Positions 20,032-43,607 of a stretch of 64,000 bases of DNA are shown one piece after another. Under the pieces are notes generated by a model. That model did no database searches. It was not told the DNA's origin and worked only from the letters and a program-made list of their open reading frames with translations. The position numbers and the translations under genes were made by a program. Source of the DNA: Gracilimonas tropica DSM 19535 (GTDB lineage: Bacteria > Bacteroidota > Rhodothermia > Balneolales > Balneolaceae); the NCBI RefSeq assembly GCF_000375425.1, contig NZ_AQXG01000013.1:1-64000 (forward strand), written 5' to 3'. Position 1 is the first letter of the stretch. Every line of letters begins with the position of its first letter.

Positions 20032-20040
20032 CCCATCCCG

Positions 20041-20081
20041 TCCCGCCGGTTCCGGTTCTCTGGTTCCGGCGGGATTTTTTT
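20041..20081 (+). terminator. strong intrinsic terminator after capsid candidate 1
   Basis: TCCCGCCGG (20041-20049) pairs with CCGGCGGGA (20066-20074) around a 16-base loop, followed by a seven-T run. It isolates or partially attenuates the 203-aa gene from the downstream structural genes, allowing differential expression. Confidence 0.85.
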
Positions 20082-20112
20082 AACGCAAATCTTTTCTACC
20101 ACTAAGCAAGCC

Positions 20113-20889: not shown

Positions 20890-20891
20890 TC

Positions 20892-21305: not shown

Positions 21306-21306
21306 G

Positions 21307-21885: not shown

Positions 21886-21911
21886 ACCCATATTTGCATA
21901 AACAAACCCCC

Positions 21912-23315: not shown

Positions 23316-23870
23316 GTGAGTAGTGCGCTGTCCATATCCTCCCAGCTCAGCTATCTTCGGGTCAATGGCATTCTGGGGCATTTCTATGAGGCTTCTCGGG
23401 TGCATAACGTGCCCGTTTCCCTGCTGTTGGCCATCGCCTCCAGGGAGAGCCATATGGGCTTAGCCCTCGATAGCAACTGGACGGGCGATAATGGCAATGG
23501 CATCGGCATCATGCAAATTGACCGGAGGTATCATTCGGGCTTTACCAGCTCCCATGCCAACAGCGACCACCGCGCCAACATCCACTATGGCAGCAAGTTC
23601 CTGGCGGACCTGATCGGCAAGTTTGGCGGTAAGCTCACCCCAGCTGTGTCCGCTTACAACGCGGGATACACTAAAGTCAGAAATACCATTAGTGCCGGCA
23701 TCGATCCGAACCTGGTTACCACCGGGCAAAATTACGCCTCCGATGTGCTTCACCGCCAAGAAATCGTGGAATCGGTTATGGGCATTTCCAAAGCGTCCAC
23801 GGCCAGCATGGTACTTTTGCCACTAATCATCACAGGATTTATTTCCTACCAAATCTTTAACTCTCAATAA
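23316..23870 (+). CDS. membrane-anchored lytic transglycosylase
   Basis: A 184-aa protein with GTG start directly after the previous stop. The lysozyme/SLT fold is clear: catalytic E44 in SRESH, GIGIMQID near 67-74, and AVSAYNAGY near 108. It cleaves the glycan backbone of peptidoglycan. A hydrophobic C-terminal helix (about 163-180) anchors it, matching the other virion membrane proteins and suggesting an entry enzyme for local wall penetration rather than a free endolysin. Confidence 0.9.
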   Translation: MSSALSISSQLSYLRVNGILGHFYEASRVHNVPVSLLLAIASRESHMGLALDSNWTGDNGNGIGIMQIDRRYHSGFTSSHANSDHRANIHYGSKFLADLIGKFGGKLTPAVSAYNAGYTKVRNTISAGIDPNLVTTGQNYASDVLHRQEIVESVMGISKASTASMVLLPLIITGFISYQIFNSQ

Positions 23871-23876
23871 ACCACC

Positions 23877-24248
23877 ATGAAATCATCTTCCGGATACATA
23901 TACAGCGAGAAAAGCTCTCCCGGTTTGGGAAACATAATGCTTGATCCGAATCTACCCACCGAATTAAATACCGCCATCCAACCAACTTTATCTGTAAACA
24001 CAAGGCGAAACAGCCCTTCCATTGTTGCAGGTGTACCTCCAAGAATCAGAACTCCTTTTCGTCCAAGATTGCCTAAAATAAAACCAGTTATTCAAGATTT
24101 GAGTGAAAAAGCTAAAGAGGCTACCAAACCGAGCAATGCAAAAAGCGAGCCTGTGGCAACCCAGAAAAAACCGATCAACAAGAAAATGATCGCGCTGGCC
24201 GGTGCTGGGATTGTTGGAGCCGGAATCCTCTTTAAAATCTTACGCTAA
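23877..24248 (+). CDS. small C-terminally membrane-anchored protein, Pro/Lys-rich
   Basis: A 123-aa protein beginning MKSSSGYIYS with SPGLGN at residues 18-23, a signature shared with the gene at 7717. The middle is basic and Pro-rich; the last 20 residues form a Gly/Ala/Ile membrane helix ending KILR. Probably a minor virion membrane protein. Confidence 0.55.
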   Translation: MKSSSGYIYSEKSSPGLGNIMLDPNLPTELNTAIQPTLSVNTRRNSPSIVAGVPPRIRTPFRPRLPKIKPVIQDLSEKAKEATKPSNAKSEPVATQKKPINKKMIALAGAGIVGAGILFKILR

Positions 24249-24268
24249 CCTAACAAGGAAAACCAACC

Positions 24269-24502
24269 ATGAGTAAATCAAGCTATACCTCTGATACCGG
24301 CCTTGGATGCGGCTGCGGTTGCAACGGAGCCGGAATCGGTTCTTCTCCCGTAGTGGACGTTAAAAACGCCGAAGCCGAAAACACCAAAACGGACTTAGTG
24401 GATACCGCCAAAAAATACATCAACGGCGACGTGCCCATGAAGTACAAAGCCGCTGCCATTGCCCTTGGTGCTGGTTTTCTGTGGCTAAAGTTCAAGAAAT
24501 AG
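24269..24502 (+). CDS. small membrane protein with Gly-Cys cluster
   Basis: A 77-aa protein. The N-terminus reads SSY...DTGLGCGCGCNGAG: four cysteines alternating with glycine next to the GLG signature of its neighbours. A C-terminal helix (about 58-73) ends FKK. The Cys cluster could bind metal, be lipidated or crosslink; none of this can be told from sequence. It lies in the lysis/virion operon. Confidence 0.55.
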   Translation: MSKSSYTSDTGLGCGCGCNGAGIGSSPVVDVKNAEAENTKTDLVDTAKKYINGDVPMKYKAAAIALGAGFLWLKFKK

Positions 24503-24506
24503 CCCC

Positions 24507-25082
24507 ATGAAACGAGCCGACTACATTGCCCTTATAGAAAGCTATGGGGGCTATTTTTCCTTGTCCGATTTTGAAATCCAGGGGGATATCACCCGAATGG
24601 ATATGGATTTTCTGCGCTCATTTTTAGCATGGAGAGGTTGGTCAGGAACCAAAACCCTGATCACTTCCGCTTGGCGAGATGGAGACCCGAAATCTCACGG
24701 TAAAGGTCTGGCCATTGACTGCCTTTTGTTTACCGAATGGCTTACCAAACAGGCAAGCCCGCTTCAGCACTGGCTGCTTGCAACCACCTGGCCCTTTCAG
24801 GGGGTAGGGTTGTATTTCGACTGGCAGTTCACACATAAACTGAACCTAATGAAGATTCCGGCTATTGGCCTGCATGTGGACGGGTGGAGTGGCAAACAAA
24901 TCAACGAGCGGCCCCTGCGATGGCTCCGGATTGATGACCATTACTACTACCAGTCGACGAAAACCGGACGGTTTTACTGCCGACAGAACAAACAAACCAT
25001 AACGCTTCAACAAGCCATTCAGGACTACGAGCAACGCTATGAGCAAATCACCAAAGCCCGAGCATTACCTCAGCAAGTATAA
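24507..25082 (+). CDS. M15-type D,D-/L,D-peptidase, endolysin-like
   Basis: A 191-aa soluble protein. The zinc-peptidase signature is present: S63-H64-x-x-G-x-A-x-D71 and H123-x-D125 (GLHVDGW), the metal ligands and catalytic residues of family M15 (VanX/VanY-like), with which phages cut peptide stems of peptidoglycan. There is no signal peptide, so export would need a holin; small membrane proteins follow immediately. It overlaps the next gene by 44 bp, as lysis genes often do. Confidence 0.85.
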   Translation: MKRADYIALIESYGGYFSLSDFEIQGDITRMDMDFLRSFLAWRGWSGTKTLITSAWRDGDPKSHGKGLAIDCLLFTEWLTKQASPLQHWLLATTWPFQGVGLYFDWQFTHKLNLMKIPAIGLHVDGWSGKQINERPLRWLRIDDHYYYQSTKTGRFYCRQNKQTITLQQAIQDYEQRYEQITKARALPQQV

Positions 25083-27375: not shown

Positions 27376-27518
27376 ATACCATATTTTATGCGCCTTATAT
27401 TAATAACGAATATAGAATTTCATATTACCCAATATGGAAATGATGAACATTTTTAATACGTTTGAGTAATAAGAAACTGCTACTTTTGTTATATTAGGTG
27501 TTCCTAAAAAATCAACAA

Positions 27519-28127
27519 ATGCATTCTTTACACAACATAGCGTCTTATATCCTGAATAAATACCCGGGAGAAATCACCCCGATGAAGCTCCAAAAGCTTC
27601 TGTACTATGTAAAGGTATGGACTCTTGTAGCGGATCAGAAAATGATCAAATCTTCTGATGCATTCTTTGCTTGGAAGCATGGGCCGGTTAATCCTGGTAT
27701 TTACCACGAGTATAAAGAGTACAAAAATAAGCCTATTGAAGATACTCCGAACTTCAACCCACTTTCTAAAGAGGAAAAGGAAGTGGTGGATTTTATCTTG
27801 GATAGCTATGGCTTCTATAACGCTATTACACTATCTAAAGCAACTCACGCTGAAGATCCCTGGATTAACAAGAGAGAAGTAAATGGTAGAATTACCGATC
27901 AGGAGATTCTGGATTATTACACCTATGAATCATTTGCTAAAAACTTCCCGTTAACCAAGAATCAGGGTTATTATCCCCCCAATACGATTTCCCATTATGC
28001 CTTTATTTTTGATATGGACAAATCGGATAAAGCAGCGGAAGTAATGTTTGATTCTATCGAGGAATACAAAAGTCTCTTTTCAAAAGCTTCTGAAGACTAT
28101 ACATTCCTTGTAAATCAGATTAACTGA
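27519..28127 (+). CDS. DUF4065 (Panacea/SocA-like) antitoxin candidate
   Basis: About 202 aa from ATG 27519; an in-frame GTG at 27498 is less likely. The N-terminus follows the DUF4065 pattern: ASYIL, the TPMKLQKLLYYV stretch, then FAWKHGPVNPGIY. This domain neutralises many unrelated toxins (Panacea) and in SocA is a protease adaptor. The Fic gene begins 2 bp downstream, so the pair is a likely toxin-antitoxin module. The C-terminal 60 residues are unassigned and may confer toxin specificity. Confidence 0.85.
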   Translation: MHSLHNIASYILNKYPGEITPMKLQKLLYYVKVWTLVADQKMIKSSDAFFAWKHGPVNPGIYHEYKEYKNKPIEDTPNFNPLSKEEKEVVDFILDSYGFYNAITLSKATHAEDPWINKREVNGRITDQEILDYYTYESFAKNFPLTKNQGYYPPNTISHYAFIFDMDKSDKAAEVMFDSIEEYKSLFSKASEDYTFLVNQIN

Positions 28128-28129
28128 TT

Positions 28130-28807
28130 TTGAGTGATAGTGCTGAGTTAGAGCAACTACGGGAACTAATCGAGCTATTTCCTGCCGAGTACTCAATGGA
28201 TGATGTTGAAGAAGCGAACCGAGTAGCCCGGACTCGCTTTGATGCTTTGGATAATCAGCTCATTCCTTATCTGGTTAGTGTTTTCAAAACAGGCGATGCA
28301 CGGCCTTCTGTAAACATTTATCTTAAGCTTTGTGGGTCTTTCCATACACTAATTTTCAAAGAAATAATTTCAATAAATGGGGAATTTAGAAATTCAGCCC
28401 ATGATGGTTCCGGTTCTGTATATTTTGGCGGACAAAAAAGGCAAGAGCTTAAACCAAGATTTACCGGTTCCAGACCTGAGAACATTGAAAATGATCTTAA
28501 GGAGGCATTTAAATTTATCATAGACCTTAAGAGCTATACTCCCGTTGACAATGCTCTTCGATTTTATCAAAAATTCGTTTTTACACATCCGTTCTATGAT
28601 GGGAATGGAAGAATCGCTCGGCTTTTTGTGAACCTGTATTTACTTGCTAATGGAAAATTCATTGATTGGAAAAATCTGCAAGACAAAGGAAATTTTCTTA
28701 GAAAATTAAACTACTATCATGACACCGGGAAAGAAGAACATTTTGAGTGGTGGGCGAAAGTTTGCTACAAATTTGTGTATGATATTTCAGATGAGGATGA
28801 GAGGTGA
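28130..28807 (+). CDS. fic: Fic/DOC family AMP-transferase, toxin candidate
   Basis: A 225-aa protein with TTG start at 28130, two bases after the antitoxin stop. The canonical motif H153-P-F-Y-D-G-N-G-R-I-A-R164 is intact, with the catalytic His and phosphate-binding Gly-Asn-Gly-Arg, so AMPylation activity is expected. No inhibitory S/T-xxx-E-G-N helix is evident near the termini, in line with control by the separate DUF4065 protein. The weak TTG start would keep toxin below antitoxin. It converges with the TcmP gene with only 2 bp between the stops. Confidence 0.9.
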   Translation: MSDSAELEQLRELIELFPAEYSMDDVEEANRVARTRFDALDNQLIPYLVSVFKTGDARPSVNIYLKLCGSFHTLIFKEIISINGEFRNSAHDGSGSVYFGGQKRQELKPRFTGSRPENIENDLKEAFKFIIDLKSYTPVDNALRFYQKFVFTHPFYDGNGRIARLFVNLYLLANGKFIDWKNLQDKGNFLRKLNYYHDTGKEEHFEWWAKVCYKFVYDISDEDER

Positions 28808-28809
28808 AA

Positions 28810-30045
28810 TTAAAATTGGAAGATTTGCTGTCTTGGTATAAAGATTAAATCATCATCATTGATTCTGTCTTTATTCTTTTTTGGATTATCATTTTTAGTA
28901 GTCAATTTAATTTCTTTCTTGCGGCTTAAATCACTGATAGAGTTATAAATCATATCTTTTGTAGCAGGAGTATCATTTATGTGTTTAAGGAAGAATTCTT
29001 TTGCTTTAATAGGGGTATAAGATAGATTCTGCGGTATTTCAGATAATAGCTTAATTTTATTGTCGACTTCATCTTCACTACTAAAAGTCATAGTACTCTG
29101 CCTTGTATAATCAATATCATATTTGGGATTATAACTTGGGAAAACCTTTAAACCAGTTTTAGTTTCACTTACAAAATGATTTTTGAATTGCCAATGTAGC
29201 TTTTGCATTTCATCTTTTGCTTTTGGACTCATTGAAAGGTGTAGCAACCAATATGAACGAGTACTTTCGCTGGATTTTATAAAAAAGTTCGTCATATACT
29301 CTGCCTTAGTTTTTGACTTAAAATCTTTATATAAGGCAAATTGAATATTCTCTCGCCACCTTTTTTGTTTCTTTTGCTCGTCCAGAGATGCCAAATCAAA
29401 ATCTAAATTTAGCTTATCTAATATACTCCGGCACGCTAGAGTATTGGACATATAGTCAATCAATGAATCGACGTTAAAAGTCAAAATGACTTCAGCTTTT
29501 GGAAGTTCTCTAAAAATTTTATTGAGGACTTTAATCGATACTTCTGAATATCCATATTGATCTAAAAAAAATATAGTCCTATGAGCTCGACCCTTTTTCT
29601 TAATATCACTAATTATTTCGTTTATCCTATTTTGGAAAGTATCTTGGATAACAAATATGCTACTATCTAGTCTCGAGTTATATTTTTTTTGTATTTGATC
29701 TCTTAAAAAAGCTGCAGAACTTGGTTCCTTTTCTACAAAGTAATACCGAGAATGTAGCTTAAATTTTTTTTGCAATGATAATACAGTAGCAGCTGTCTCT
29801 ATAGTATCAATCATCAAAAGTGGTGAGCCATCATGTATTTCCCCTGAAGAGGTTATGTATTTCCCTCCCCCAGCAAAGCCATCAACTAAATTTAATCGAA
29901 GCATGCTTGAGTATGGATACCCCCCAACGATTTCAACATATATCCTTAAATACTCTTTAAGTACTTCATGCTTCCGGATGCTGTGAACATCTATTTTGGG
30001 ATAGTCTGTACTCGAGGAATGCCAAACATATTTATCATTTTTCAT
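28810..30045 (-). CDS. tcmP: three-Cys-motif partner protein TcmP (long form)
   Basis: A 411-aa protein. LVDGFAGGGKY near residue 55 is a Rossmann methyltransferase-type motif I, and FFLDQYGYSEV near 165 occupies the DPFG-like motif IV position, as in TcmP proteins. These are named for genomic pairing with three-Cys-motif (Gp37/Gp68, DUF5131) proteins. The C-terminal 100 residues add a helical, probably winged-helix part. It lies 79 bp downstream of the DUF5131 gene. Function is unproven; a nucleic-acid modification or defence role is plausible. Confidence 0.8.
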   Translation of the reverse strand: MKNDKYVWHSSSTDYPKIDVHSIRKHEVLKEYLRIYVEIVGGYPYSSMLRLNLVDGFAGGGKYITSSGEIHDGSPLLMIDTIETAATVLSLQKKFKLHSRYYFVEKEPSSAAFLRDQIQKKYNSRLDSSIFVIQDTFQNRINEIISDIKKKGRAHRTIFFLDQYGYSEVSIKVLNKIFRELPKAEVILTFNVDSLIDYMSNTLACRSILDKLNLDFDLASLDEQKKQKRWRENIQFALYKDFKSKTKAEYMTNFFIKSSESTRSYWLLHLSMSPKAKDEMQKLHWQFKNHFVSETKTGLKVFPSYNPKYDIDYTRQSTMTFSSEDEVDNKIKLLSEIPQNLSYTPIKAKEFFLKHINDTPATKDMIYNSISDLSRKKEIKLTTKNDNPKKNKDRINDDDLIFIPRQQIFQF

Positions 30046-30124
30046 TAGCCCCTTTATTTGAATGACTTTACATCATTTTAATAAAAAATATTAAACTAAT
30101 AAAAAACTAACCCTTATTTATAAT

Positions 30125-30856
30125 TTATATAGAGAACTCAACAGGCATACTTGGCATGTCATCCCAAGTCTTACCCTCCAACTTTCTTCCAGCTTTTTTC
30201 TTATTTGTACCTCCCCATTGTTTGAAGAAGAAAGGAACGTTAGCCTTATTACATTGTCTCTTGATATCAAGAACCCATTCTGGCTTCATTGGTCTTGGTG
30301 TTCTTCCACTCTCACCACCAACAATTACCCAATCAATCCCACCAAGATTCATTTCAGGTAGAGGTCCAATTAATGGTTCACAGGATAGAAATTTAGTCTT
30401 AGCTTTTGTCTGTGACAGAATGTCAATTCTTTCCATTACTCTTTGATCTTCTACAGAAGTTCCCATCCAAATATTCTCAGACCAATTGAGTTCATTAGCA
30501 TTATCATATTCCAATAGCAGCTCTGTACGCTTGGTTAAAACCTGAAATACATGCTGTGGATTGTCATTCATAACCTTAAATACTTTTTGGATAAATTCTA
30601 ATGGAACTTCCGGATGAAATAAGTCGCTCATAGAATTAACAAATACAACTCTGGATTTTGACCAACTATATGGTTCCTCTAAGGTAGAGGGGTGAGTTCT
30701 GACTTTAAACCCATCTTTATATTTGTCTACACCCATAGCTTTTAGCCTTTGAGACATAATTTCTGCATAACAAAACTTACATCCTTGGGAAACTTTACTA
30801 CAACCCGTAACCGGGTTCCATGTTAACTCTGTCCATTCAATTGAAGATTTTCCCAT
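30125..30856 (-). CDS. DUF5131 / phage Gp37-Gp68 family three-Cys-motif protein
   Basis: A 243-aa protein. WNPVTGC19-x6-C26-x2-C29-YAE near the N-terminus is the three-Cys motif, probably an iron-sulfur or metal site related to radical-SAM enzymes. VNSMSDLFH, TKRTE, WMGTSVEDQ and IVGGESG are further family marks, and the length is typical. It is encoded 1 bp after a TcmP gene and before a second one, so the three likely work together. Occurrence in phages and defence islands suggests nucleic-acid modification; chemistry unknown. Confidence 0.9.
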   Translation of the reverse strand: MGKSSIEWTELTWNPVTGCSKVSQGCKFCYAEIMSQRLKAMGVDKYKDGFKVRTHPSTLEEPYSWSKSRVVFVNSMSDLFHPEVPLEFIQKVFKVMNDNPQHVFQVLTKRTELLLEYDNANELNWSENIWMGTSVEDQRVMERIDILSQTKAKTKFLSCEPLIGPLPEMNLGGIDWVIVGGESGRTPRPMKPEWVLDIKRQCNKANVPFFFKQWGGTNKKKAGRKLEGKTWDDMPSMPVEFSI

Positions 30857-30857
30857 A

Positions 30858-31733
30858 CTAAGAATTTTGAATTATGTAATTAGCGATTTTGTGAGCGGTT
30901 TTATTATTACTGGCAAAAATAAAATGAAATAGAGGTGCACCAGAATTATTATCAAGTCTAAGTGCAGGTTCGGTTACATGTTTCCAAACACTTTTAAGCC
31001 TTTTAATGTACAAAGATGAAATTTTATCAATGGGATCAACAATTTTTTTTACCTCTGTGTTAGTACTAAAAAAATTGCCTTGACCAGTTTGGATATAAAA
31101 TTCTTTTCGTATTTGGTCTTCTTTCATTCCAAAAAAGCTTTCCAACTTTTTGATATTCTTTAATAATCCTTTTTTATCAAGCAACCGATTTACTATAACA
31201 GCCGTTGGTAACAGTAGCCAGATATCTGACCTTGTGTTAGAGAACCTTTCAATGCTTTTCCAATTAATGTGCATCCCGAACGGGTCTAACAAGATCAATG
31301 CTACGTGTTGATGTTTCTTTAGAACATTGGCAAGCTTTAGGAGTTCTTTGTTGCAGTCTGTTGCTCTAAAAATTAGTTTCTTTTGCTCATCATTATTTAT
31401 TTGGGAGAGTTTAGTTTCCAGACTTTGCAATCTTTGTTGACTTAATTCTATGAAATAATAGTAGTCAAAATTAAAAGGTGCTTTTAAGCTGACTATCCTT
31501 TCAGCTGCACCTCGATAAACAAACTGCTCTTCTTGTGTAATTGATTGAAAAAGAGGTATCTCACTTTTTATTTTTTTTCCTTGACCGTCACCTGCAAATC
31601 CATCAAAATATATCTTACCCCACCTTGGTTGCTTGTTTAAAATGGTTAAATAAGACTTAACGTAATTTTCAAAAGCATTTAACTTCTGATTAGTCCAAGG
31701 TCCGCCCCATTCTTTCTTGCTAGATTTTGACAT
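30858..31733 (-). CDS. tcmP: three-Cys-motif partner protein TcmP (short form)
   Basis: A 291-aa protein. YFDGFAGDGQG near residue 45 and LILLDPFGMHI near 145 are the methyltransferase-like motifs I and IV of TcmP. It is clearly diverged from the 411-aa TcmP two genes downstream, so this locus has two paralogues flanking one three-Cys protein. It starts 60 bp after the end of the restriction gene, so the whole minus-strand set could be one transcript. Confidence 0.85.
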   Translation of the reverse strand: MSKSSKKEWGGPWTNQKLNAFENYVKSYLTILNKQPRWGKIYFDGFAGDGQGKKIKSEIPLFQSITQEEQFVYRGAAERIVSLKAPFNFDYYYFIELSQQRLQSLETKLSQINNDEQKKLIFRATDCNKELLKLANVLKKHQHVALILLDPFGMHINWKSIERFSNTRSDIWLLLPTAVIVNRLLDKKGLLKNIKKLESFFGMKEDQIRKEFYIQTGQGNFFSTNTEVKKIVDPIDKISSLYIKRLKSVWKHVTEPALRLDNNSGAPLFHFIFASNNKTAHKIANYIIQNS

Positions 31734-31793: not shown

Positions 31794-34700
31794 TTAGTTA
31801 ACTTTTATTTCATCAATCTTCTGCATCAACCGGTCAGTCTCCATCAGCGCCACAATGATTTTTTGATAATGGCGAATTTCATCTATAGATAACTCTCGAT
31901 CACGACGGTCTTTGAGCCATTTCTCGGCAGGTTGGTAGCCTCCGATGTAGAACTCCCAGGCTTTTTTGGGTACGTTGCCGAAATACTGTTCTTCGTTAAT
32001 CCACACTTTGCCGGTGGTTTCATCATCGTCTTCCGGAATAAAACCGGGATCGGTTTTTGTAAGCCGGTTGGAAATTACATTACTTCCTGCAATGGGGTAG
32101 GTGGTTATAAATTCTTCTACAACTGGATGCTCCAGTAAGTGAATTTGGCGCAGCTTTCCACCAAGTTCTATAAGTTGCCAAAAAAGCTCGGGATCTTTTG
32201 GGTAAGGTACTCTTGGGAAGTCGATCTTCAGAAACTCTTTGTATTTCTCGCGGTAACTTGGGGAATGCAATACAGCATAGATATAATCGAGCAGATCAAT
32301 AGGGGCAAACGTGCCCTCGGTTAATTCCTTCTCAGGTACAAACTTTAGCCCGAGTTTCCTCGCTATTTCCTGAACGATCTTCTTATCTAAATTGGGCGTG
32401 CGCTCGGTCTGACCATCGAGGGTTTGTTGGGTAGATTCTTCGGGGTAAAGGTAGAGTGGATATACTACATTTTGTTCTTTTGTTTTATTGGAAATGACAC
32501 ACATTTCAGCAATTGAATCAGTTATAAAAATGTGATAGAAATTATTGCCAGCCAATTGTCTCGGAGCAAGCAAAGCTAAATTATTTTTTTTATAAAGTTG
32601 ATTCATCACTTCAGGTCGTGGCCAATCAATCATTTCTTCACTATAATAAACTGGACGCTTGTCAAATGGACGATAGTTCAAGTTTGCTATATTTTCTCCT
32701 ATTGAATGTTCAGATATAGCTTTTCTTGCCTCGCTTACTTTCCAACCCCTTGTATCACCCTGCTTATACTTTCCTGCCTTTTTGTGTCCAAAAAACTCAT
32801 TACGAATATATTCATCACTTTTACTCTAATCCCTAAATCTATCGATCTTCTCTTGTAAAGTATTTTTGTCATAATCAATTACGAGGAAATCTCTTGATGT
32901 TTGTATTCCAACACTGTTTAATTTGAATAAATCGACCAGGGCTATGCCGGAATAATATTCTTTACTATCAATATTATTGGCAGGTTTAAACTGAAAAAAA
33001 GGTTCTTTCGGTTCTAACTTTTCAAAATCAAAACTTTCAATATTATTATTGAGTAGTTCAGAATATTTATGTGATCTTTTTCCAATAATACTATGGTGAA
33101 ATACCCCATTAGTTTTCAACTGATTCGATTTTATGAAAAGATTAATAGATACACCCTGCTGAATATCAAATACATTTTCATCATTTACATTATCACCAGA
33201 AAATACTTCTTGTTTTGCACTTCCATTTAAATCAATGCAATAAATTAGATCAAAATTATTCATTAATTGCCACCTCATTCCTCTGAAGGTGGGATTAAAC
33301 AAGAAGCTATGATTATTTACAAATGCTAAAACACCTTCGCCATTTTTCTCGACAAAATGTTGTCCGTAGCGAATAAACTTCACATAATCATCATGGAGCC
33401 AGTGTTTTCGTTCACCAAAATGCTCTCCATCTATGTATTTATAGTCTTCAATAAGTTCAGAAATCCATTCCCCCATATTTGAGGAAATTCCACTGTACGG
33501 CGGGTTTCCCAAAACCACCATCACCGGAGTATCGCGTTTGATATGGTTGGCTTCATTGGCTTCTTCACTCAACCAACCAGCAAAGAGGGTTCCGGTATCA
33601 GGGTGGTGTTCTTCCAGAGAATTGGTGAGATACACGCGAAAGCGTTGACTACCACTTGGCTCTACACCAGTTTCGCGAAGCAGCAAATCTAGTTTCAGGT
33701 GGGCCATTGCGTAACTAGCCATCAAGATCTCAAATCCGTTCAGTCGAGGAATGAGATGCTCTTCCACATAAGTAGCCCAGATGCCTTGCTGTCCTTCAAA
33801 TTTGGAATGGATTTGTTTGATCACTTCCGCCAAAAAGGTACCGGTTCCCGTTGCGGGGTCCAAAATCTGCACTTTATGCACTTCGCGTTCTTCTTCCACC
33901 ATACCGTCTTTGTGGCGTTTGTCGTGGGTGGGCACTTTTACCTTCACTTTTGTTTTGGAGGTGTCCGCCAGCCCGTCTTTCAGTCCAAATTCGTCTTTTA
34001 GAATATCATCGACCGCTCGTACAATAAAGTTCACCACCGGCTCCGGTGTGTACCAGACTCCGCGGCTTTTCCGAAGCTTAGGATCGTATTCAGCCAAGAA
34101 CGTTTCATAAAAATGAATGATGGGGTCTTGCTGCTGTGTAGCTTTACCAAAGTTCTTGAGAAGACCATCTACATCAGTAGCTCTGAAAATATCAGCTAAC
34201 CCATCTACCACCCATACAATACGATCATCCAGGTCATAACCTGCAATGTATTGGAAGAGCTTACGAAGGAATGGATTGGTTTTTGGAATAAGAGCAGCGG
34301 CCTCATGTCGATCAAAGGTATCCAAGGTCGAATCGTGTAATCGAGCTGCAAACATACCATATGCAATCGTCTGTGCATAGATATCTGCAAATTCCTTAGC
34401 GCTGATATCGTGAATCAAGACGTTCTGAAAGGCAGTCAATTGTTCCCGCAGAGTATTGTTAGCTGACTCGTTTACCTTATCTTTCTGCTTTTCCTCATCG
34501 GCATTCAGGGCTTTCTCAATTACATCAGCGAGGATTCGTGCTTTACCGGCCATCATCTTCGACAGCTTATTGGCACTGCGGATGGTTTGCCCGACATGAG
34601 TCCCAAAATCTTTGATGATGTTTTCGAACTCGTCGTAATTCTCAGTCAACCCAACTATGCTACCATCTTTGATTTCAGCAATATCAACGGAGGTCAGGAA

Positions 34701-35036
34701 TTCTCCATCCCGATATACACGGAAATTGAGGTAATCAGTAAAGATCAGATTCGGAAGACCGGTTTTGTAGCGTTCAAACTGCTCCTTATTCTTCTTCTTA
34801 CCCTCAAGATCTGGATCGCCTATGTCTTTGGCTTCAATATATCCAACTGGAATTTTGCCTTTGGTGAGGATATAGTCAGGGGCTCCAACATCTGTTCTTG
34901 AGGGTTCATTGGTGATGAGCAGGCCGGGTAATAAATCACCAAGAAGTGTTTGAAGGTCTCCTCTGTAACTGTGTTCCCGCGAAATACCTGCTTTATATCT
35001 TAGGTTTAACTGATCGACGTATTCCTGAATGGTCAT
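31794..35036 (-). pseudogene. type ISP/IIG-like restriction-methyltransferase, split by one in-frame TAG
   Basis: One frame of 1081 codons is cut after residue 736 by a TAG at 32826-32828; reading continues in the same frame to 31794, so the only lesion is that codon. N-terminus: PD-(D/E)xK nuclease with P53-D54 and E68-A-K70. Centre: N6-adenine methyltransferase with DPATGTG near 390 and NPPY near 509. C-terminus: target recognition region beginning around NYRPFDKRPVYY. The family cuts and methylates DNA with one polypeptide. The first part alone keeps nuclease and methyltransferase but loses most of the recognition domain; a TTG at 32679-32681 could restart the rest. A nonsense mutation, phase-variable state or sequencing error are all possible. 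Confidence 0.85.
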
Positions 35037-36417: not shown

Positions 36418-38340
36418 TTGGGAAGAGAATTTAAAACAGAACTAAGTGAAATAGATAAAACATTAGTTGAAGCTTTGGAAATAGATATCTCTATACTAAA
36501 AAAAGCTCTTAGTGAAAATATTCGAGAAGATTTACTGATAGTCGGGTCAGGAGGTTCTTTTAGTGTAGCAAAGCTAATAAGCACCTGCCATAATGATATA
36601 GGGGGAAATGCTGAGGCAGTAACTCCTCTTATGCTACTAGAAAGAAAAGATCAAATTATTAATAAAGTAGTTGTTTTAATAAGTGCAAGTGGCAGGAACA
36701 ACGACATATTATTTGCCACAAAATTAGCAATGATCGCTCAGAGTAAAAAAATCTTGGCTTTAACTTTGACAGGTGAAAATAAATTAGCAGAAAAAATTAA
36801 ACCTTATACAAGGTCAAAGCATATTTCTTATAACTTTTCATACGGGAAAGATGGGTTCTTGTCAGTCAATTCTTTAGTTGCCTACTTTACAATCATATTG
36901 AGGGCATATAGTGATTTTCATGATGCGAATTATATCCTCAAAAAAGATAAGTTCTTAAAGTCTAAACTAGTTTTAGAAGTAGAGAATTTTGCCAATAAAA
37001 TTGATGAAAAAGTTGAAACTATTTCACTTTTGTATAGCGCAAAATATGAAGCTATTGCAACAGATCTTGAGTCAAAACTAGTTGAAGCAGGATTATTTAA
37101 CCCTCAAATAAGTGATGTTAGAAACTTTGCTCATGGAAGACATAACTGGTTTGATAAGAAAAAAAATAATACCGTTCTATTGTCTATAATAAGTGGTCAA
37201 GATTTAGCAATTGCAAAAAAAACTATCAAAGAAATTCCAGACTCAATACCAAAATTATTATTGAATCCTGGTGAAAATAGAGTTGATGAGAATTTATATT
37301 TACTAAAACCTTTATTTCATCTCGTGAATTTGTTAGGTGAAAAAAGAGGTATCGACCCTGGTAGACCAGGTATTCCAAAATTTGGAAGAAAGATTTATAA
37401 TCTAGCTTTCCAAAGCCAATATTTAAAAGAATTTAATAGAGTTAAAGTCGATGAAGTAAAACTCAAAAAAAAAGAAGTATATGCTTTACAGAATAAATTG
37501 AATGTAGTGGATCTTAATTCTTTAAAAAGCTCAATACTAAAGTATTGGTATAATAATTATAAAGAATACTTAAATAAGATTAGATCAACAAAATTTAAGG
37601 CTATAGTATTTGATTATGATGAAACACTATGTAGTTCTCAAAGAAGATATTTAGGGCCAAGTGAATCGATGAAAAATTATCTAAATAAAATTTTAGATAA
37701 TGACCTAATTGTTGGGGTTGCCACAGGTAGGGGGAAATCTGTACATAATGATTTAAAGAAAATTATTAATGAAGAATACCAAGATAGAGTTTTAATTGCT
37801 TACTACAATGGCAGCATAATTGGAAAGCTAAGTGATGGTATACCAAACATTAAAATTAAAACTTATGCTAATTTAGCAAAGTTGAAAGATCAAATATCTC
37901 TAATACCAGAAATTGATGAATATTTATTATTTAAATTAAGACCAACTCAGTTGTCAATTAACTTAAAGTACAAGAAAAACTCAGAGTGGGTTATTGGTTT
38001 AATTCAAGATTCTATTCGAAAATTCGATGATTTAAAAATGGTTTGGTCATCACATTCAATAGATATAATACCAAAGGAAGTTAGTAAGTTGAGTATTATT
38101 AATAGATTGAATACAATTAGTTCTGAAAATGAAATATTAATGTTGGGTGATCAAGGTAAATATCCAGGTAATGATTTTGATTTGTTAAATTCAAAATATT
38201 CTTTGAGTGTTGATGATACAAATTCAATTACCGACAGATGTTGGTATTTAGCTGATGGATATGTTAAAGGGGTAGATGCTACTCACTATTATTTAGATAG
38301 AATAAAGTATTATTCGGGTTACTTTAAAATCAAATTATAA
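36418..38340 (+). CDS. SIS sugar-phosphate isomerase fused to HAD phosphatase
   Basis: A 640-aa protein with TTG start (the only initiator after the upstream in-frame stop at 36403). Residues about 20-180 form a SIS domain: LLIVGSGGSFSVAK and VLISASGRNND, the phosphosugar-binding loops; a second, weaker SIS-like half may follow. Residues 395-635 form a HAD phosphatase: D399-Y-D401-E-T, VATGRGKS, and GDQGKYPGNDFD near 577. Together they could isomerise and dephosphorylate a sugar phosphate. First gene of an AT-rich operon; its stop overlaps the next ATG. Confidence 0.8.
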   Translation: MGREFKTELSEIDKTLVEALEIDISILKKALSENIREDLLIVGSGGSFSVAKLISTCHNDIGGNAEAVTPLMLLERKDQIINKVVVLISASGRNNDILFATKLAMIAQSKKILALTLTGENKLAEKIKPYTRSKHISYNFSYGKDGFLSVNSLVAYFTIILRAYSDFHDANYILKKDKFLKSKLVLEVENFANKIDEKVETISLLYSAKYEAIATDLESKLVEAGLFNPQISDVRNFAHGRHNWFDKKKNNTVLLSIISGQDLAIAKKTIKEIPDSIPKLLLNPGENRVDENLYLLKPLFHLVNLLGEKRGIDPGRPGIPKFGRKIYNLAFQSQYLKEFNRVKVDEVKLKKKEVYALQNKLNVVDLNSLKSSILKYWYNNYKEYLNKIRSTKFKAIVFDYDETLCSSQRRYLGPSESMKNYLNKILDNDLIVGVATGRGKSVHNDLKKIINEEYQDRVLIAYYNGSIIGKLSDGIPNIKIKTYANLAKLKDQISLIPEIDEYLLFKLRPTQLSINLKYKKNSEWVIGLIQDSIRKFDDLKMVWSSHSIDIIPKEVSKLSIINRLNTISSENEILMLGDQGKYPGNDFDLLNSKYSLSVDDTNSITDRCWYLADGYVKGVDATHYYLDRIKYYSGYFKIKL

Positions 38341-39464
38341 TGAGACGAGAACTTGCAGATAAATTGCTTGCAAAGGTATTAGAATGGGAGCCCGAGGATG
38401 TATCAAAGAATCTAGCTAATATAGAAATGTTGTCTCGTCTAAAGTATGATGAGTATCAGCAGTTTTTTCCGGGAATGAGATTTACCGAGAGTTTGGCAAT
38501 TTGGCTAAATCAATTTAGAACGGTTGAAGAAAGAAAGAAAATGTTAGAGTTAGTTCTTAATAAACTAATCTACATTTCTAACAAAGAGATGAATGAGCTA
38601 GTTTCTCAGGTGTATCCTGATAATCTTAGGCATCACCTTATAGATGTTGTTGCTAATCAATTAGGGAAGTCAAAATATTCCATTAATCAAATAGTCAACA
38701 CAAATGATTTTAGATTTAATCTAAGAAAAACACTATTTCTTGGGCTTAGTGATGGTGCGAGGACTGATGTAATTCGTCGATATAATCCCTTTATATCTCA
38801 TGAACAATTGTTACCATTTTATTTGGTGCCAGACGAAAAGATTGAAGAACTATTAAAAGAGTTAAAATTAGATCTTGATAAAATTGATTCTAAGCTGTTT
38901 CAAAATGATGATAACAAATTTCATAACCTTGTATTATTAGATGACTTTACTGCAAGTGGGACAAGCTACTTTAAGTTTGATGGAAGCAAATTCCGAGGCA
39001 AGGTTAACAAAATTCTTAACAAGATTTCTGGAAAGGATAAATTTCGCAATTTATTTAACCTCGATAAGCTGAATATATTTTTGATTATATATATATCCAC
39101 ATCGCATGCAATAAATGTTATAAATGATGCTATAAAGAGCTGGGAGGAAGAGAATGGGAAAATATATAATAGAATCAATTTTCAGGCAGTATACGAACTA
39201 CCAAAAGACATAAAGATTGTTGCTGGCGATACCCAAACCTGTGAAGTTCTAAAAGAATATTATGACAGTTCTATTGAGACAAACAGTTATAAAAAAGGAA
39301 AACATGATCATCCATATTTAGGATTTGATGAATGTGGGCTGCCTTTAATTTTACATCATAATACGCCTAACAATTCTTTGCCGATTTTATGGAATGAAAG
39401 AAGTACTGATGGATCAGGTGGTTTTGTTGGATTATTTCCTAGAGTAAGTAGACATAAAACTTAA
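38340..39464 (+). CDS. phosphoribosyltransferase-like protein of conflict-system type
   Basis: A 374-aa protein. LVLLDDFTASGTS (D201, D202, T204, G207, T208) is the PRPP-binding signature of type I phosphoribosyltransferases, preceded by a helical N-terminal domain of about 190 residues and followed by IYISTSHA and a C-terminal segment. It resembles a PRTase-like family I recall being listed among prokaryotic conflict elements (PRTase-CE), a recollection not checked. It may transfer phosphoribose to a base or protein. It overlaps the SIS-HAD gene by one base. Confidence 0.75.
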   Translation: MRRELADKLLAKVLEWEPEDVSKNLANIEMLSRLKYDEYQQFFPGMRFTESLAIWLNQFRTVEERKKMLELVLNKLIYISNKEMNELVSQVYPDNLRHHLIDVVANQLGKSKYSINQIVNTNDFRFNLRKTLFLGLSDGARTDVIRRYNPFISHEQLLPFYLVPDEKIEELLKELKLDLDKIDSKLFQNDDNKFHNLVLLDDFTASGTSYFKFDGSKFRGKVNKILNKISGKDKFRNLFNLDKLNIFLIIYISTSHAINVINDAIKSWEEENGKIYNRINFQAVYELPKDIKIVAGDTQTCEVLKEYYDSSIETNSYKKGKHDHPYLGFDECGLPLILHHNTPNNSLPILWNERSTDGSGGFVGLFPRVSRHKT

Positions 39465-39465
39465 T

Positions 39466-41445
39466 ATGAGAGAAAGAAATCCATTTTTATTAAGAACAGC
39501 TGAAAGGATAAACAATGACGATGATTTTATAAGCCTTTTTAGCCCTAATAGTCTAGATTTGATAATTGAAAATTTGGAAGGCCATTCTTTGTGGAATCAA
39601 TTTTACAGATTTCAAAGTTCACCAGGTGGGGGAAAAACTTCACTTCTTAGACTTTTTGATCCAAGCATATTAACTAGGATACCAGAAATTGTTGAATCAA
39701 GTGTCGAATCAAATGAGGATTTAAAAGGATTATTAAAAAAACTAGTAGAGATAGATGCAATAAGAAAGGATTACAAATTAGGGGCTTTATGTGTTTATAA
39801 TTCTTGTGCAAGTAATTATAATAGTATTATAAATTTGGGTATAGATGAGCAAAAGAAAAATCGACTTTTTCTATCATTAATAAATGCTAGGATATTAATT
39901 TCATTTCTACGTACATCATTAGAATACATTAAGAAGTACATCCCTGATTGTAATCCAGAAACCGAACTTTCTAAAATAAAATTTGATGTTTCACCAAATA
40001 CTAGTGTTCCATCATCCTTTAATCTTAATATGGACGGCTTTGAGCTATATAATTGGTGTGCAAAGCTAGAGAAAAGCATTTACAGAGAAATAGATGGGTT
40101 TGAGAATGAAGACAACAACGAGCTCATCCAAGAGAGCTTATATTCTGTTCAATTGCTTGAGTATGGCCAAGTGCATTATTCAGGTGAAATTCATTTTCCC
40201 AAAAGGTTTGCCATTATGTTTGATGATGTCCAAAAACTTGGATTTGAACAGCAAAAATTATTAGTGAAAAACCTGCTTGAATTAAGACCATCTGTAGGTG
40301 TTTGGTTTGCTGAGAGATTAGACTTGATGAGTTTGGATGAAATGTTGACAGATGAATCAGTTACTGAGGGTAGAGACTTTGTAAAATCTATTAACATAGA
40401 AGACTTATACAGAGGTCCAACGAACACATTTAAGAATTTTGCAAATAGTGTGGCTCAGAAACGGGTTGAGAGGGCTCGTGACATTAATATTTCTTCATTT
40501 CCCGGAAGTCTAGAAAAAAACCCTGATATTCCTAAAGATAGATTAGAGTCAGGCTATGGTAAAATTGTAAAATCAATAAAAAAAATTCCTGTTAAAGAAG
40601 ATATATATGGAAGTTGGCTAAGCTATATAGACAATTCAGAAATGAGTATTTATAATAAATTATTAGAGCTAAAATATGCTCAATTATTAATTGAAAGGAA
40701 TGAGAAAAAGCCAGAACGTAATTTAAGTTTATTTAACTTCGATTTAACAGTTGAAGAGTTTGAACAAAGGAAAAAGTCAATTACTAAATGGATTCCTGAG
40801 TATTTAGTTTCTAAAGAATTAGGTATCCCTTATTACTTTGGCTTTGAAAAATTAGTTGACTTATCAAGCTCAAATATAGAACAATTTTTAGCTTTGTCAG
40901 GAAGACTATTTGAAGAAATCATTTCCAATAGAGTTTTAAGTCGAAATGTTTCCATAATGCCCGCAAAACAAGAGCAAATCTTAAAAAAAGAAGCACAACG
41001 AAGGTGGGATGATATTACTAGGCTTTCTAACCATGAACGGATTCTCAACTTACTTACATCAATTGCTAAGTTTTGTAGAAATGAAAATGATAAGGATGGT
41101 TTTCCCTATTCAGGTGTTACTGGAATCGGTATTGAGCAAATTGATAAAGATAACCTAATAAACAGAGACAATTGGAAAAATAGCCCCTTTTATGAAGATA
41201 TTACTCAAACCTTAAGTGTTGCAATTGCAAATAATTTGTTAGAGGTAGTGAATAATAGAAAACAGGGTACTAAAGGAGCCCCCCCAAAGACACTTTTTTA
41301 TTTGAATAGGTGGATATGTTTAAAGTTTGACTTACCTCTTTCATACGCAGGATGGAGAACGATTAACTTAGACCAAATGGGTAGGTGGGTTAAACATGGA
41401 TATGATGGGGAAATCACCCAAACAAAGAGTATATATGAAAATTGA
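39466..41445 (+). CDS. P-loop ATPase (STAND/ORC-like) of the five-gene operon
   Basis: A 659-aa protein starting 1 bp after the PRTase stop. Walker A is SPGGGKTSL (G54-T58); Walker B is IMFDDVQ (D253, D254). The spacing of about 195 residues between them is long. The C-terminal 200 residues look like winged-helix or helical repeats. The order resembles AAA/ORC-Cdc6-like or STAND ATPases that act as sensors in defence systems. It probably senses or regulates rather than making the small molecule. It overlaps the next gene by 11 bp. Confidence 0.7.
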   Translation: MRERNPFLLRTAERINNDDDFISLFSPNSLDLIIENLEGHSLWNQFYRFQSSPGGGKTSLLRLFDPSILTRIPEIVESSVESNEDLKGLLKKLVEIDAIRKDYKLGALCVYNSCASNYNSIINLGIDEQKKNRLFLSLINARILISFLRTSLEYIKKYIPDCNPETELSKIKFDVSPNTSVPSSFNLNMDGFELYNWCAKLEKSIYREIDGFENEDNNELIQESLYSVQLLEYGQVHYSGEIHFPKRFAIMFDDVQKLGFEQQKLLVKNLLELRPSVGVWFAERLDLMSLDEMLTDESVTEGRDFVKSINIEDLYRGPTNTFKNFANSVAQKRVERARDINISSFPGSLEKNPDIPKDRLESGYGKIVKSIKKIPVKEDIYGSWLSYIDNSEMSIYNKLLELKYAQLLIERNEKKPERNLSLFNFDLTVEEFEQRKKSITKWIPEYLVSKELGIPYYFGFEKLVDLSSSNIEQFLALSGRLFEEIISNRVLSRNVSIMPAKQEQILKKEAQRRWDDITRLSNHERILNLLTSIAKFCRNENDKDGFPYSGVTGIGIEQIDKDNLINRDNWKNSPFYEDITQTLSVAIANNLLEVVNNRKQGTKGAPPKTLFYLNRWICLKFDLPLSYAGWRTINLDQMGRWVKHGYDGEITQTKSIYEN

Positions 41446-42586
41446 TTCGATGAATTGGGACCCTTATTACTACGCGGATAGAGAGAGTATTCCTGGGCTC
41501 TGGGATGATATAGTAAATGACAACCAAAATATTATTTACATAATGGCGAAGGGTTTTGATCCAAGGATGAATTCTTTTCCTATTGAACTAAAGGATATTT
41601 TAAAATCTAATATTAAGTTTCATGTTTTAGATATTGAAGGAAAAGATGGACCTAATAAAGACTTAACAGATAAAAATTGGAATGAATTAGAGCCTATTCT
41701 TTCTTCAAAAAATATAGAGATTGATGTTGAGCCTGTGGAAATGTGGAAAACGCAGCAGAATTCAAAGACTCGAATTGGACCTACAAAAGTTAAAGAAATA
41801 GTTGGTAATGGTTTAATTGATAATTACGATACAATTGTTATTGATATCAGTTCAATGCCAAGGGCTATATATTTTTCTTTAATTTCAGCTATTTTAGACT
41901 TAACAAGGAAGGAAAATAGAAAGGGCAATCGAGTTAATGTTTTTATAAATGTTGTTGAAAACCCAGAGTTAGATAGGAAAATTTCAAGTTCGGGGGTTGA
42001 TGATAAAGCGGAATTCATTCCTCAACTTGGAGGACACTTTGAAGAAAAGTCATCAGACTTTAGCTTAAAAGCTGGGATTAGCATTCCTAAAATTTGGATA
42101 CCAATTTTAGGTGAAAAACAACACCCAAAACTCGAAAAAATCCATGAGTCTGTCAATCCTGATGAAATAAGCCCAGTTATTCCATTTCCATCAATTAATC
42201 CAAGAAGGACTGATGATTTATTAATAGATTACAGAGAATTATTGTTTGATAGATTCAGAGTTGAATATGAGAATTTAATCTATGCAAGTGAATCAAATCC
42301 ATTTCAATTGTACAGACTACTATTTCGATCAATTACAAGGTATATCGATGCATTTAAATCCCTAGGAGGGTGTAAAATAGCTATATCATCACTTTCAAGT
42401 AAGCTCTTGTCAATTGGTGCATTATTAGTTAGCTACGATTCTTATCGGATACATGATGAATCAGTTGGCCTTATTCATGTTGGAGGAAGTCAATACCATA
42501 TCGACTCTGAATACCTCAAGAATTATTCTAAGGAAAATGAAAAACTTAATACACTGTGGGTAGATGGAACACCCTATGAACAATAA
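41435..42586 (+). CDS. unknown Rossmann-like protein of the five-gene operon
   Basis: About 383 aa from ATG 41435 (an ATG at 41396 in frame adds 13 residues and lengthens the overlap). Residues 20-175 alternate strands and helices: IIYIMAKGFDPR, FHVLDIEG and TIVIDISSMPRA, like a Rossmannoid or CARF-type sensor or nucleotide-binding domain. The second half is helical. No family is recognised. Its position between the ATPase and the kinase, with 11-bp overlaps on both sides, shows it is an obligate member of the operon. Confidence 0.65.
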   Translation: MKIDSMNWDPYYYADRESIPGLWDDIVNDNQNIIYIMAKGFDPRMNSFPIELKDILKSNIKFHVLDIEGKDGPNKDLTDKNWNELEPILSSKNIEIDVEPVEMWKTQQNSKTRIGPTKVKEIVGNGLIDNYDTIVIDISSMPRAIYFSLISAILDLTRKENRKGNRVNVFINVVENPELDRKISSSGVDDKAEFIPQLGGHFEEKSSDFSLKAGISIPKIWIPILGEKQHPKLEKIHESVNPDEISPVIPFPSINPRRTDDLLIDYRELLFDRFRVEYENLIYASESNPFQLYRLLFRSITRYIDAFKSLGGCKIAISSLSSKLLSIGALLVSYDSYRIHDESVGLIHVGGSQYHIDSEYLKNYSKENEKLNTLWVDGTPYEQ

Positions 42587-43607
42587 AACTTGTGTCGGGG
42601 CTGGTTTAGTAGCCTTAGATATTATTTTAAATGGAAGTAAAGAAAAACAACCTATAATCTCTACAGGGGGTACTTGCGGAAATGTTCTGTCAATTCTAGC
42701 TTTCTTAGGTTGGAAAACAATTCCTATTGCCAGATTAGGTTTAAATGATGCGTCAAATAAAATTCTTGAGGATCTTAAAAAAAATGGTGTAGACACAACA
42801 TTAGTGGAAGCTAGTGAGTCTGGTAATACACCAATTATAATTCATAGAATTATAAAAAAAGACAATAAAATTACTCATAGGTTTGAGTTTAAAGATCCTG
42901 ATAACGGAAATTGGCTGCCCAGATATAAACCTGTCCTTAGTAAAGACGTGGAAAGAATTGTAAATAAGAACAATGAAAAAAGCCCAAGAGTATTTTTCTT
43001 TGACAAGATAAGTAGGTCGACAATTAATTTTGCTAAGCATTATAAAAAACAAGGATCGGTTATTTACTTCGAACCATCTTCTTATGGTAGGAATCTTAAA
43101 ATGTTTAACGAATGTTTAGATGTCGCAGATATCTTAAAATTTTCTGAAGATAGAATTGATGATCATTTAGAAAAAAAACAAAAAGTACCTATAGAAATTA
43201 TTACAAGGGGTAGTCAAGGCATTATCTATAGATATAAAAGGGGTACAAAATCCTCCGGGTGGATAACTCAAAAAGCAATGAAAGTATTAGATTTTAAAGA
43301 TAGTGCCGGATCAGGTGATTGGTGTTCAGCTGGTATAATCAGCCTATTATTCGCTGAAGATAAATTTAATATCAAAAAATTAAACGGTAATAGCATTGAT
43401 AGGGCAATCAGATTTGGCCAAGTTTTAGGTGCATTAAACTGTATGTTTGATGGAGCTAGGGGGCTAATGTATTCTTTAAATTCAAATCAGCTCGATGAGA
43501 CTTTATTAAAAGAAGAACAGTTTAGTCTTAATGATTTAAATTTATACGAGAAGGAGAGGTTGATTAAACTTGACAAAAAAACTAGTATTAAAAGTTTATA
43601 CTATTGA
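42576..43607 (+). CDS. PfkB-family sugar/nucleoside kinase
   Basis: About 343 aa from ATG 42576. Family marks: VGAGLVALD at the N-terminus, STGGTCGNVL (substrate loop), and D242-S-A-G-S-G-D248 (PfkB signature 2 with catalytic Asp). The kinase transfers ATP phosphate to a sugar, nucleoside or similar alcohol. With the SIS isomerase, HAD phosphatase and PRTase it completes a set able to build or recycle a ribose-phosphate compound. Last gene of the operon. Confidence 0.85.
   Translation: MNNKTCVGAGLVALDIILNGSKEKQPIISTGGTCGNVLSILAFLGWKTIPIARLGLNDASNKILEDLKKNGVDTTLVEASESGNTPIIIHRIIKKDNKITHRFEFKDPDNGNWLPRYKPVLSKDVERIVNKNNEKSPRVFFFDKISRSTINFAKHYKKQGSVIYFEPSSYGRNLKMFNECLDVADILKFSEDRIDDHLEKKQKVPIEIITRGSQGIIYRYKRGTKSSGWITQKAMKVLDFKDSAGSGDWCSAGIISLLFAEDKFNIKKLNGNSIDRAIRFGQVLGALNCMFDGARGLMYSLNSNQLDETLLKEEQFSLNDLNLYEKERLIKLDKKTSIKSLYY

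Follow-up and report, generated by a model that had tools for sequence, protein, structure and literature searches.

A candidate mobile immune system of two modules in Gracilimonas tropica, combining a CARF6-type sensor, an ORC-like ATPase and a phosphoribosyltransferase with sugar-phosphate enzymes

A stretch of 64,000 nucleotides of Gracilimonas tropica DSM 19535 (contig NZ_AQXG01000013.1, positions 1 to 64,000; this whole stretch is called the window) carries an operon of five genes, which encode a SIS-HAD fusion protein (gene 1), a phosphoribosyltransferase-type protein of the PRTase-CE family (PRTase, gene 2), an ORC/CDC6-like AAA+ ATPase (ORC, gene 3), a CARF6-type sensor (CARF, gene 4) and a PfkB sugar kinase (gene 5). 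An earlier reading of the letters alone (the sequence-only reading) had put it forward as a candidate new defence system. We propose that the operon encodes a mobile immune system against viruses or plasmids, formed by two modules and operating by the mechanism described below, and we give this reading a probability of about 0.5. Considering that a sensor, an ATP-driven switch and sugar enzymes are found together on mobile DNA and near defence genes, the immune system is probably based on a small molecule. The gene set, the motifs, the co-divergence of the two modules, the mobility and the neighbourhood are taken from sequence; from them we infer the antiviral action, the ligand, the substrate, the direction of signalling and the effector.

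Linkage and divergence of the gene set

Homologues were sought in 84,980 species genomes, where gene 2 had relatives in 331 stretches; of these the best 80, together with 3 viral contigs, formed a set of 83 loci. The association of the five genes held in this set: ORC was present in all 83 loci, SIS-HAD in 82, CARF in 77 and PfkB in 75, and the genes not found would lie beyond the end of a contig, save for PfkB in L087 and L100. A NADAR gene was found in 14 of the 83. When only the 60 loci with room were considered (2.5 kb before and 6 kb after the PRTase gene), SIS-HAD, PRTase, ORC and CARF were found in 60/60 and PfkB in 58/60, the other two having NADAR. For the four pairings of neighbouring genes, 63/78, 82/82, 76/76 and 54/70 pairs were at most 400 bases apart, with median gaps among such neighbours of -4, -1, 1 and -4 bases, respectively.

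The PRTase tree, built from the same best 80 of 331 stretches and 3 viral contigs, covered 16 phyla and was mostly clustered by phylum; the archaeal phyla in it were Thermoplasmatota and Nitrososphaerota, with one metagenome-assembled genome (MAG) each. Among 395 genomes of the window's phylum, genes 1 and 4 were each found in one, the window's own, and neither was found in the seven genomes of the same genus included there. PRTase-CE was found in 2 of the 395, the second being a genome in which a P-loop ATPase-like region and PRTase-CE share one open frame (L132:1-3026) that adjoins a restriction-endonuclease-like gene, all labels given by eye.

The distances between homologues were compared in 61 complete nonredundant operons, the window's included. 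The correlation of pairwise distances was 0.84 for SIS-PfkB, 0.76 for PRTase-ORC, 0.75 for PRTase-CARF and 0.87 for ORC-CARF, and it was lower for the pairs taken across these two groups (0.31-0.51). This pattern suggests two co-diverging modules, SIS-HAD with PfkB and PRTase with ORC and CARF. The linear route drawn in the sequence-only reading (isomerise, phosphorylate, transfer, dephosphorylate) is not supported in that form: PRTase co-diverges with the ATPase and the sensor rather than with the sugar enzymes. Two rhizobial plasmid loci (L008 and L010) have two PRTase/ORC/CARF trios and a single SIS-HAD/PfkB/NADAR set; in the former, a patatin phospholipase gene is located between the trios on the opposite strand (L008:13374-14999).

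Protein families, conserved residues and gene layout

Gene 2 was assigned to PRTase-CE by an E value of 9.9e-26 (91.6 bits, cut-off 27), and it also matched the PRTase_III-A profile of PADLOC at 8.8e-20. It contains a motif like the phosphoribosyl pyrophosphate (PRPP) loop, DDFTASGTS, at residues 201-209, with the acidic pair D201 D202 present; D201, D202 and G207 are conserved in 61/61 operons. Gene 3 belongs to the ORC-CDC6-like family (6.7e-28, 98.2 bits, cut-off 27), with a Walker A motif GGGKT at 54-58 and D253 in Walker B; K57 and D253 were found in 61/61 operons, T58 in 57/61 and D254 in 51/61. Its AlphaFold2 model had a predicted local distance difference test score (pLDDT) of 89. With this model, Foldseek returned Drosophila ORC at the top and ORC subunits led the list, the leading rows having a root-mean-square deviation (rmsd) of at least 15 Å; RdrA chains of RADAR were at ranks 4 and 5, with E of 4.5e-3 and worse and rmsd above 25 Å. 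The profile search against the PDB gave no clear solved relative of this ATPase. Judging by the order of strands and helices, residues 551-613 probably form a C-terminal winged helix.

Gene 4 had been described as an unknown Rossmann-like protein. The fold was correct, as the AlphaFold2 model (pLDDT 91.2) has two Rossmann-like lobes, with no added effector or third domain seen in it; the protein is not unknown, however, since it matches CARF6 of PADLOC (PDLC01910, 1.1e-93 over 1-348 of 348). No Pfam family was found for it. The CARF residues that were checked are present in 61/61 operons. In the Foldseek search the first rows with rmsd below 5 Å were Csa3 (ranks 37 and 40); at rank 37, Csa3 with cyclic tetra-adenylate (cA4; 6w11) gave an rmsd of 4.1 over 141 columns and a template modelling (TM) score of 0.47 on the target. 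The top PDB rows, KCC and KaiC, had an rmsd of about 20 Å and were judged to be artefacts of tandem Rossmann folds, and the rows from the viral library were taken as generic Rossmann matches.

In gene 1, the SIS lobe matched Pfam with E 0.0026 and 18 bits, below the cut-off of 25, and the HAD-IIB lobe matched NCBIfam with 5.8e-10 and 39.6 bits, slightly below the cut-off of 41.8. Family profiles built from 55-61 sequences were used to search the PDB. The profile of the SIS lobe found 8eol, a SIS protein of glucosamine-6-phosphate deaminase/isomerase type (3.4e-7 over 20-246), that of the HAD lobe found 4qjb, a HAD hydrolase (HAD sugar phosphatase; 1.9e-8), and the fructosamine deglycase 3eua was a weak match to the gene 1 profile (0.06). 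Gene 5 matched its Pfam family at 1e-14; the single sequence found nothing in the PDB at 0.001, and its profile found fructokinase 5ey7 at 7.6e-19. Four of the five SIS positions are identical in 61/61 operons and S47 in 60/61, eight HAD positions are identical in 61/61, and so are G35, G36, N40, G249, G251 and D252 of PfkB. The residues singled out in the sequence-only reading proved invariant: HAD D401, PRTase D201 and Walker K57 are identical in 61/61 operons, and PfkB D248, counted from the second ATG, is the same D252 counted from the first.

The five open reading frames (ORFs) had been placed correctly at 36418..43607 and have no internal stops (Table 1). The operon is AT-rich, as had been noted, with a G+C content of 31.2%. 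The claim that all genes overlap by 1 to 11 bp holds in part. Genes 1 and 2 share 1 base, whereas genes 2 and 3 are separated by a gap of 1 base. Gene 4 overlaps gene 3 by 50 bases from its longest ORF and by 11 bases if it starts at Met14 (41435); a start at Met14 or at Met19 (41450, gap of 4 bases) is more likely, because the first 15 residues have pLDDT below 50 and the relatives start later. Between genes 4 and 5 the overlap is 23 bases if gene 5 starts at the ATG at 42564 and 11 if it starts at the next ATG. The one Rfam match in the window was a tRNA fragment at bases 1-43, with no RNA element near the operon, although an unlisted noncoding RNA could remain. Promoter-like sites showed no excess (36 observed and 36.7 expected after shuffling), and repeats considered as regulatory at the operon were judged to be at chance level.

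Table 1: Genes and lobes of the operon, in positions of the window.
Feature	Position	Strand	Length	Family or source
Gene 1, SIS-HAD fusion	36418..38340	+	640 aa	Pfam SIS, NCBIfam HAD-IIB
Gene 1, SIS lobe (isomerase/deaminase-type)	~36475-37155			
Gene 1, HAD-IIB lobe (sugar-phosphatase-type)	~37600-38190			
Gene 2, PRTase-CE phosphoribosyltransferase-type	38340..39464	+	374 aa	PF24390, PADLOC
Gene 3, ORC/CDC6-like AAA+ ATPase	39466..41445	+	659 aa	PF24389
Gene 4, CARF6-type sensor	41450..42586; longest ORF from 41396	+		PADLOC CARF6
Gene 5, PfkB (ribokinase/fructokinase-type) sugar kinase	42564..43607	+	347 aa	PF00294

Mobility and defence neighbourhood

In 72,556 plasmid records, genes 1, 2 and 4 had 17, 18 and 17 matches, 16 of them common to all three, and gene 3, which is more diverged, had 10. 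The 17 records with gene 4 were 8 conjugative, 1 mobilizable and 8 non-mobilizable plasmids. Fifteen of these 17 were inspected; SIS-HAD, PRTase, ORC and CARF were found in 14, in several gene orders, and NADAR was annotated in 8. One locus (L009) has the four-gene set without visible PfkB, and another (L017) is decayed, with PRTase, CARF and the gene at the place of SIS-HAD each in two ORFs; here SIS-HAD was assigned by position only, as the gene 1 search did not list the record. It was also observed that six plasmid loci of rhizobial type (L007, L008, L010, L011, L012 and L014) have a gene of the RHE_PE00001 family in the vicinity of the system, a site that is possibly an insertion hotspot, and that in L012 a gene annotated as caspase-family (16974-18428) adjoins the system. 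Genes 4 and 2 had no match in 50,697 phage records, and a phage origin of the operon was not retained; it may nevertheless occur on some viral or virus-like DNA, because 3 IMG/VR contigs have it.

The site of the operon was compared with the sister genome G297, in a contig of which 42 kb was examined. The similarity reaches base 43718 of the window, the end of the adjoining secretion gene, and then stops; other genes are found at the place of the operon (L126:12837-19287), and the site is therefore variable. One of these genes is 43% identical to a DUF6527-named protein located beside the Bradyrhizobium operon.

The proteins that flank the operon were compared with controls. Up to two ORFs of at least 110 aa were taken on each side of 74 loci, nine having been dropped as near-copies or viral (L055, L061, L064, L065, L076, L080 and L098-L100); 214 ORFs were chosen and 187 scanned, in batches of 90 and 97. 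The controls were 187 scanned ORFs out of 190, from 14 stretches of 14 host genomes. Left out by hand were L046:2-1084, L092:7425-8183 and L069:14718-17213 from the first batch and L092:7425-8183, L019:3498-7718 and L081:17278-21096 from the second; the others of the 27 unscanned flank ORFs were not drawn. With PADLOC at E 1e-10, the flanks of the first batch matched 139 families (25 shown) and the control 11, mostly with one protein each and often under names that resemble housekeeping paralogues. Since proteins could not be counted at that level, a threshold of E ≤ 1e-60 was used. It was set once the first batch, with 6 names, had been seen, and it was kept for the second, which gave 7 plain names and 3 that are less specific (control 0). 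Defence names were thus given to 13 of 187 flank proteins and to 0 of 187 control proteins (Fisher p 2e-4), with one member per PADLOC name, so that two names may be one protein, and with neighbours at the same locus not being independent. The 13 names were GajA, GajB, PglZ, BrxL, SduA, AbiEi, NsnA, two PDC, two type I methylases and two type I endonucleases, which cover BREX, Gabija, type I restriction, Shedu and Abi genes; the less specific matches were dGTPase, TniQ and C3a139.

Pfam found integrases in 4 of the 90 flank proteins of the first batch, together with conjugation genes. Nine clusters of flank ORFs recur in at least 4 of the 83 loci; among them, by our reading, are a family of efflux pumps (in 6 loci), integrases (in 5), a family of Fic-like proteins (in 5), relaxases, type I methylases and an AbiE pair. 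A consistent housekeeping context, which the sequence-only reading had named as refuting it, was not seen: the largest cluster among 828 flanking ORFs is present in 6 of 83 loci. Six Bacteroidales loci form a clade in which CARF is followed by other genes in 6/6. These inserts are AbiE in L071, L073, L094 and, by clustering, L092, AbiL in L091 and PDC-S01 in L097; PfkB then follows the insert in the five loci whose contig extends far enough.

In the window, the restriction genes and the relic of an insertion sequence that had been noted beside the operon were recovered as a type ISP restriction-modification gene and an IS110 remnant (27.5 bits, below the cut-off of 29). The former, at 31794-35036, is split over two ORFs and is therefore probably broken. 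Further away, two TcmP-type genes flank a DUF5131 gene at 28810-31733 and match the PADLOC candidates PDC-M41 and PDC-M30, and at 27498-28807 a SocA/Panacea antitoxin-type gene adjoins a Fic gene, probably as a toxin-antitoxin pair. After a protein of 2409 aa with RelA/SpoT, SNF2 and helicase regions (11565-18794) come an SLT transglycosylase and unnamed genes (19420-25082), in a block of about 50% G+C; this resembles a mobile element in its own right, next to the AT-rich island.

Taken together, the patchy presence, the plasmids, the variable site, the neighbours when set against the control and the Abi inserts back the candidate defence reading. A defence role is in this way partly supported by genomic context, and the chemistry and the direction of signalling are what we infer beyond it.

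Proposed mechanism and comparison with known systems

In the mechanism that we propose, PRTase, the ORC-like ATPase and CARF6 (module A) would be the unit that senses and acts. The ATPase would sense a cue of the invader, probably nucleic acid, and CARF6 would bind a small ligand, which in most hosts would not be the cyclic oligoadenylate of Cas10; on infection both would jointly license PRTase. This enzyme would use PRPP to transfer a phosphoribosyl group to a base or an amine, either as a harmful act (drain of PRPP or a mark) or to produce a signal. SIS-HAD and PfkB, sometimes with NADAR (module B), would handle the sugar-phosphate side and control how much of that small molecule is present; more likely, they would remove or recycle the product of PRTase and keep the system off. 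The role of off-switch is favoured because NADAR domains, which are ribosyl N-glycosidases (PMC9503650), could undo the reaction of PRTase, and because PRTases are effectors, at least as proposed, elsewhere. In its wider form, as cyclase-free immune signalling of bacteria and archaea in which CARF reads a sugar-phosphate or phosphoribosyl metabolite rather than an oligonucleotide and the ORC-like ATPase commands a PRTase effector checked by an isomerase-phosphatase-kinase module, the idea is offered tentatively, with the odds somewhat against it.

Several observations weigh against the immune reading. Most of the scanned flank proteins are not defence proteins; the efflux-pump-like cluster recurs at 6 loci (3 close kin, 2 near-identical), and L086, a Bacteroidales locus that does not belong to the clade of six, lacks an Abi insert. 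In family scans, none of the five proteins could be recognised as a nuclease, an NADase or a membrane effector. In Foldseek, gene 3 had no match with E below 0.001 and the whole model of CARF6 matched weakly (TM about 0.25 on the query), while the profile search against the PDB found no solved relative of CARF6 or of PRTase. As NADAR is restricted to 14 of the 83 loci, a write-erase pair of PRTase and NADAR is not general.

The opposite direction, in which SIS-HAD and PfkB build a messenger resembling a nucleotide or consisting of a phosphorylated sugar, which is finished by PRTase and sensed by CARF6 while the ATPase acts, is unlikely in our estimation, though to be taken seriously. It would account for the SIS-HAD gene in all 60 loci with room and for the conserved catalytic residues, it would give a source of ligand to a CARF sensor that has no cyclase in its operon, and Ter systems (PMC7824862) offer a proposed precedent; against this, no effector would be visible unless it were the ATPase or PRTase, and PRTase co-diverges with the sensor trio and not with the sugar enzymes. 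We consider it improbable that PRTase adds a ribosyl-phosphate mark to host nucleic acid or another target, as modification of DNA, RNA or protein, with module B tailoring or removing it. Such chemistry would suit the action of NADAR proteins on N-glycosidic ribosyl links (PMC9503650), an ORC-like ATPase of DNA-binding type and the restriction genes of the window, but there is no fixed restriction partner in the operon and the neighbours vary. An ordinary operon for salvage of sugars or Amadori products, carried on plasmids, is very improbable: the profiles of SIS and PfkB do match SIS proteins of deaminase/isomerase type and fructokinases (the deglycase only weakly), but a CARF sensor and an ORC ATPase are linked to them in every locus with room, the defence neighbours, the Abi inserts and the rarity do not fit, and of the nine recurring clusters only the efflux-pump-like one was recognised as a transporter. 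The weakest reading, hardly credible to us, is a type III CRISPR accessory whose CARF6 senses the cyclic oligoadenylate of Cas10, for which speak the CARF fold, the local match to Csa3 with cA4, the PRTase_III-A label of related PRTases and a Cas10 palm over the cut-off in 10/48 hosts (15/48 at E 0.001), and against which stand 38/48 hosts with none over the cut-off.

If the immune reading is correct, a CARF reader whose operon lacks a cyclase and has complete sugar-phosphate enzymes would suggest that a further class of small molecules, yet to be identified, acts in immunity. The split into two modules makes the behaviour of module A, toxic or silent, a direct genetic test. Since the same set occurs in 16 phyla, with MAGs of archaea among its carriers, working out a single example would account for many islands that lack annotation.

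Cyclic oligoadenylates are the main ligands that CARF domains are known to read, and Csm6/Csx1 belong to the CARF-based signalling of type III CRISPR. The CARF proteins of these systems (Csa3, Can2) have, like gene 4, a CARF-like Rossmann sensor; here, in contrast, no Cas10 is in the operon and no nuclease domain is seen on CARF6. Cas10 was searched with one profile in 48 of the 80 host genomes, several of them incomplete MAGs, and the palm profile is not fully specific, because the E. coli control also passes. The window's genome had no Cas10 over the cut-off, and its sub-threshold match reads as a GGDEF protein (motif by eye). From the host counts, CARF6 seems independent of Cas10 in most hosts tested; these counts and the GGDEF-like frame disfavour signalling driven by Cas10. 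RADAR consists of the RdrA ATPase and the RdrB deaminase, and it resembles the operon in pairing an AAA+ ATPase with an enzyme of small nucleotides; the RdrA matches to gene 3 are weak, however, and no deaminase is found here. Fructosamine (frl-type) catabolism pairs SIS with a PfkB kinase, and the likeness lies in the isomerase/deaminase-type SIS fold and the kinase; here SIS is instead fused to HAD and stands beside PRTase, ORC and CARF, on mobile DNA and in a defence context.

None of the five proteins matched a CD-NTase, the enzyme looked for as the mark of CBASS (cyclic-oligonucleotide-based antiphage signalling), the rest of the genome not having been searched for it, and no Ter-named family was among their matches. 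In Ter systems, with TerB/TerD as sensors, PRTase and HAD are proposed to make a nucleoside-like signal that is read by a ligand-binding protein (PMC7824862); the operon shares PRTase and the HAD phosphatase and differs in having the CARF sensor, the ORC ATPase, SIS and PfkB. PRTase is an effector, actual or proposed, in type III retrons (PMC12548924) and in the DprA-PRTase system (PMC9122126), and there too it stands beside a DNA-binding partner; here, by contrast, there is no DprA, no reverse transcriptase among the five proteins and no Rfam noncoding RNA near the operon, and the sugar-phosphate module is always present. A partial literature search met no description of the whole five-gene set, which is not a claim of its absence in print; among the matches listed, 'PRTase-CE' was not met and 'CARF6' appeared in one unrelated paper. 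Parts of the set have already been noticed by others, since three of the families have names in Pfam and PADLOC, and in the DefensePredictor paper (PMC13092281) NADAR and PRTase domains are mentioned among the predicted systems, one of which may be the present set. The features common to defence systems in general, a neighbourhood of defence genes and mobile DNA, were both found, and the gene set would be a conflict system of ATPase, PRTase and CARF in which the sugar-phosphate module is always present.

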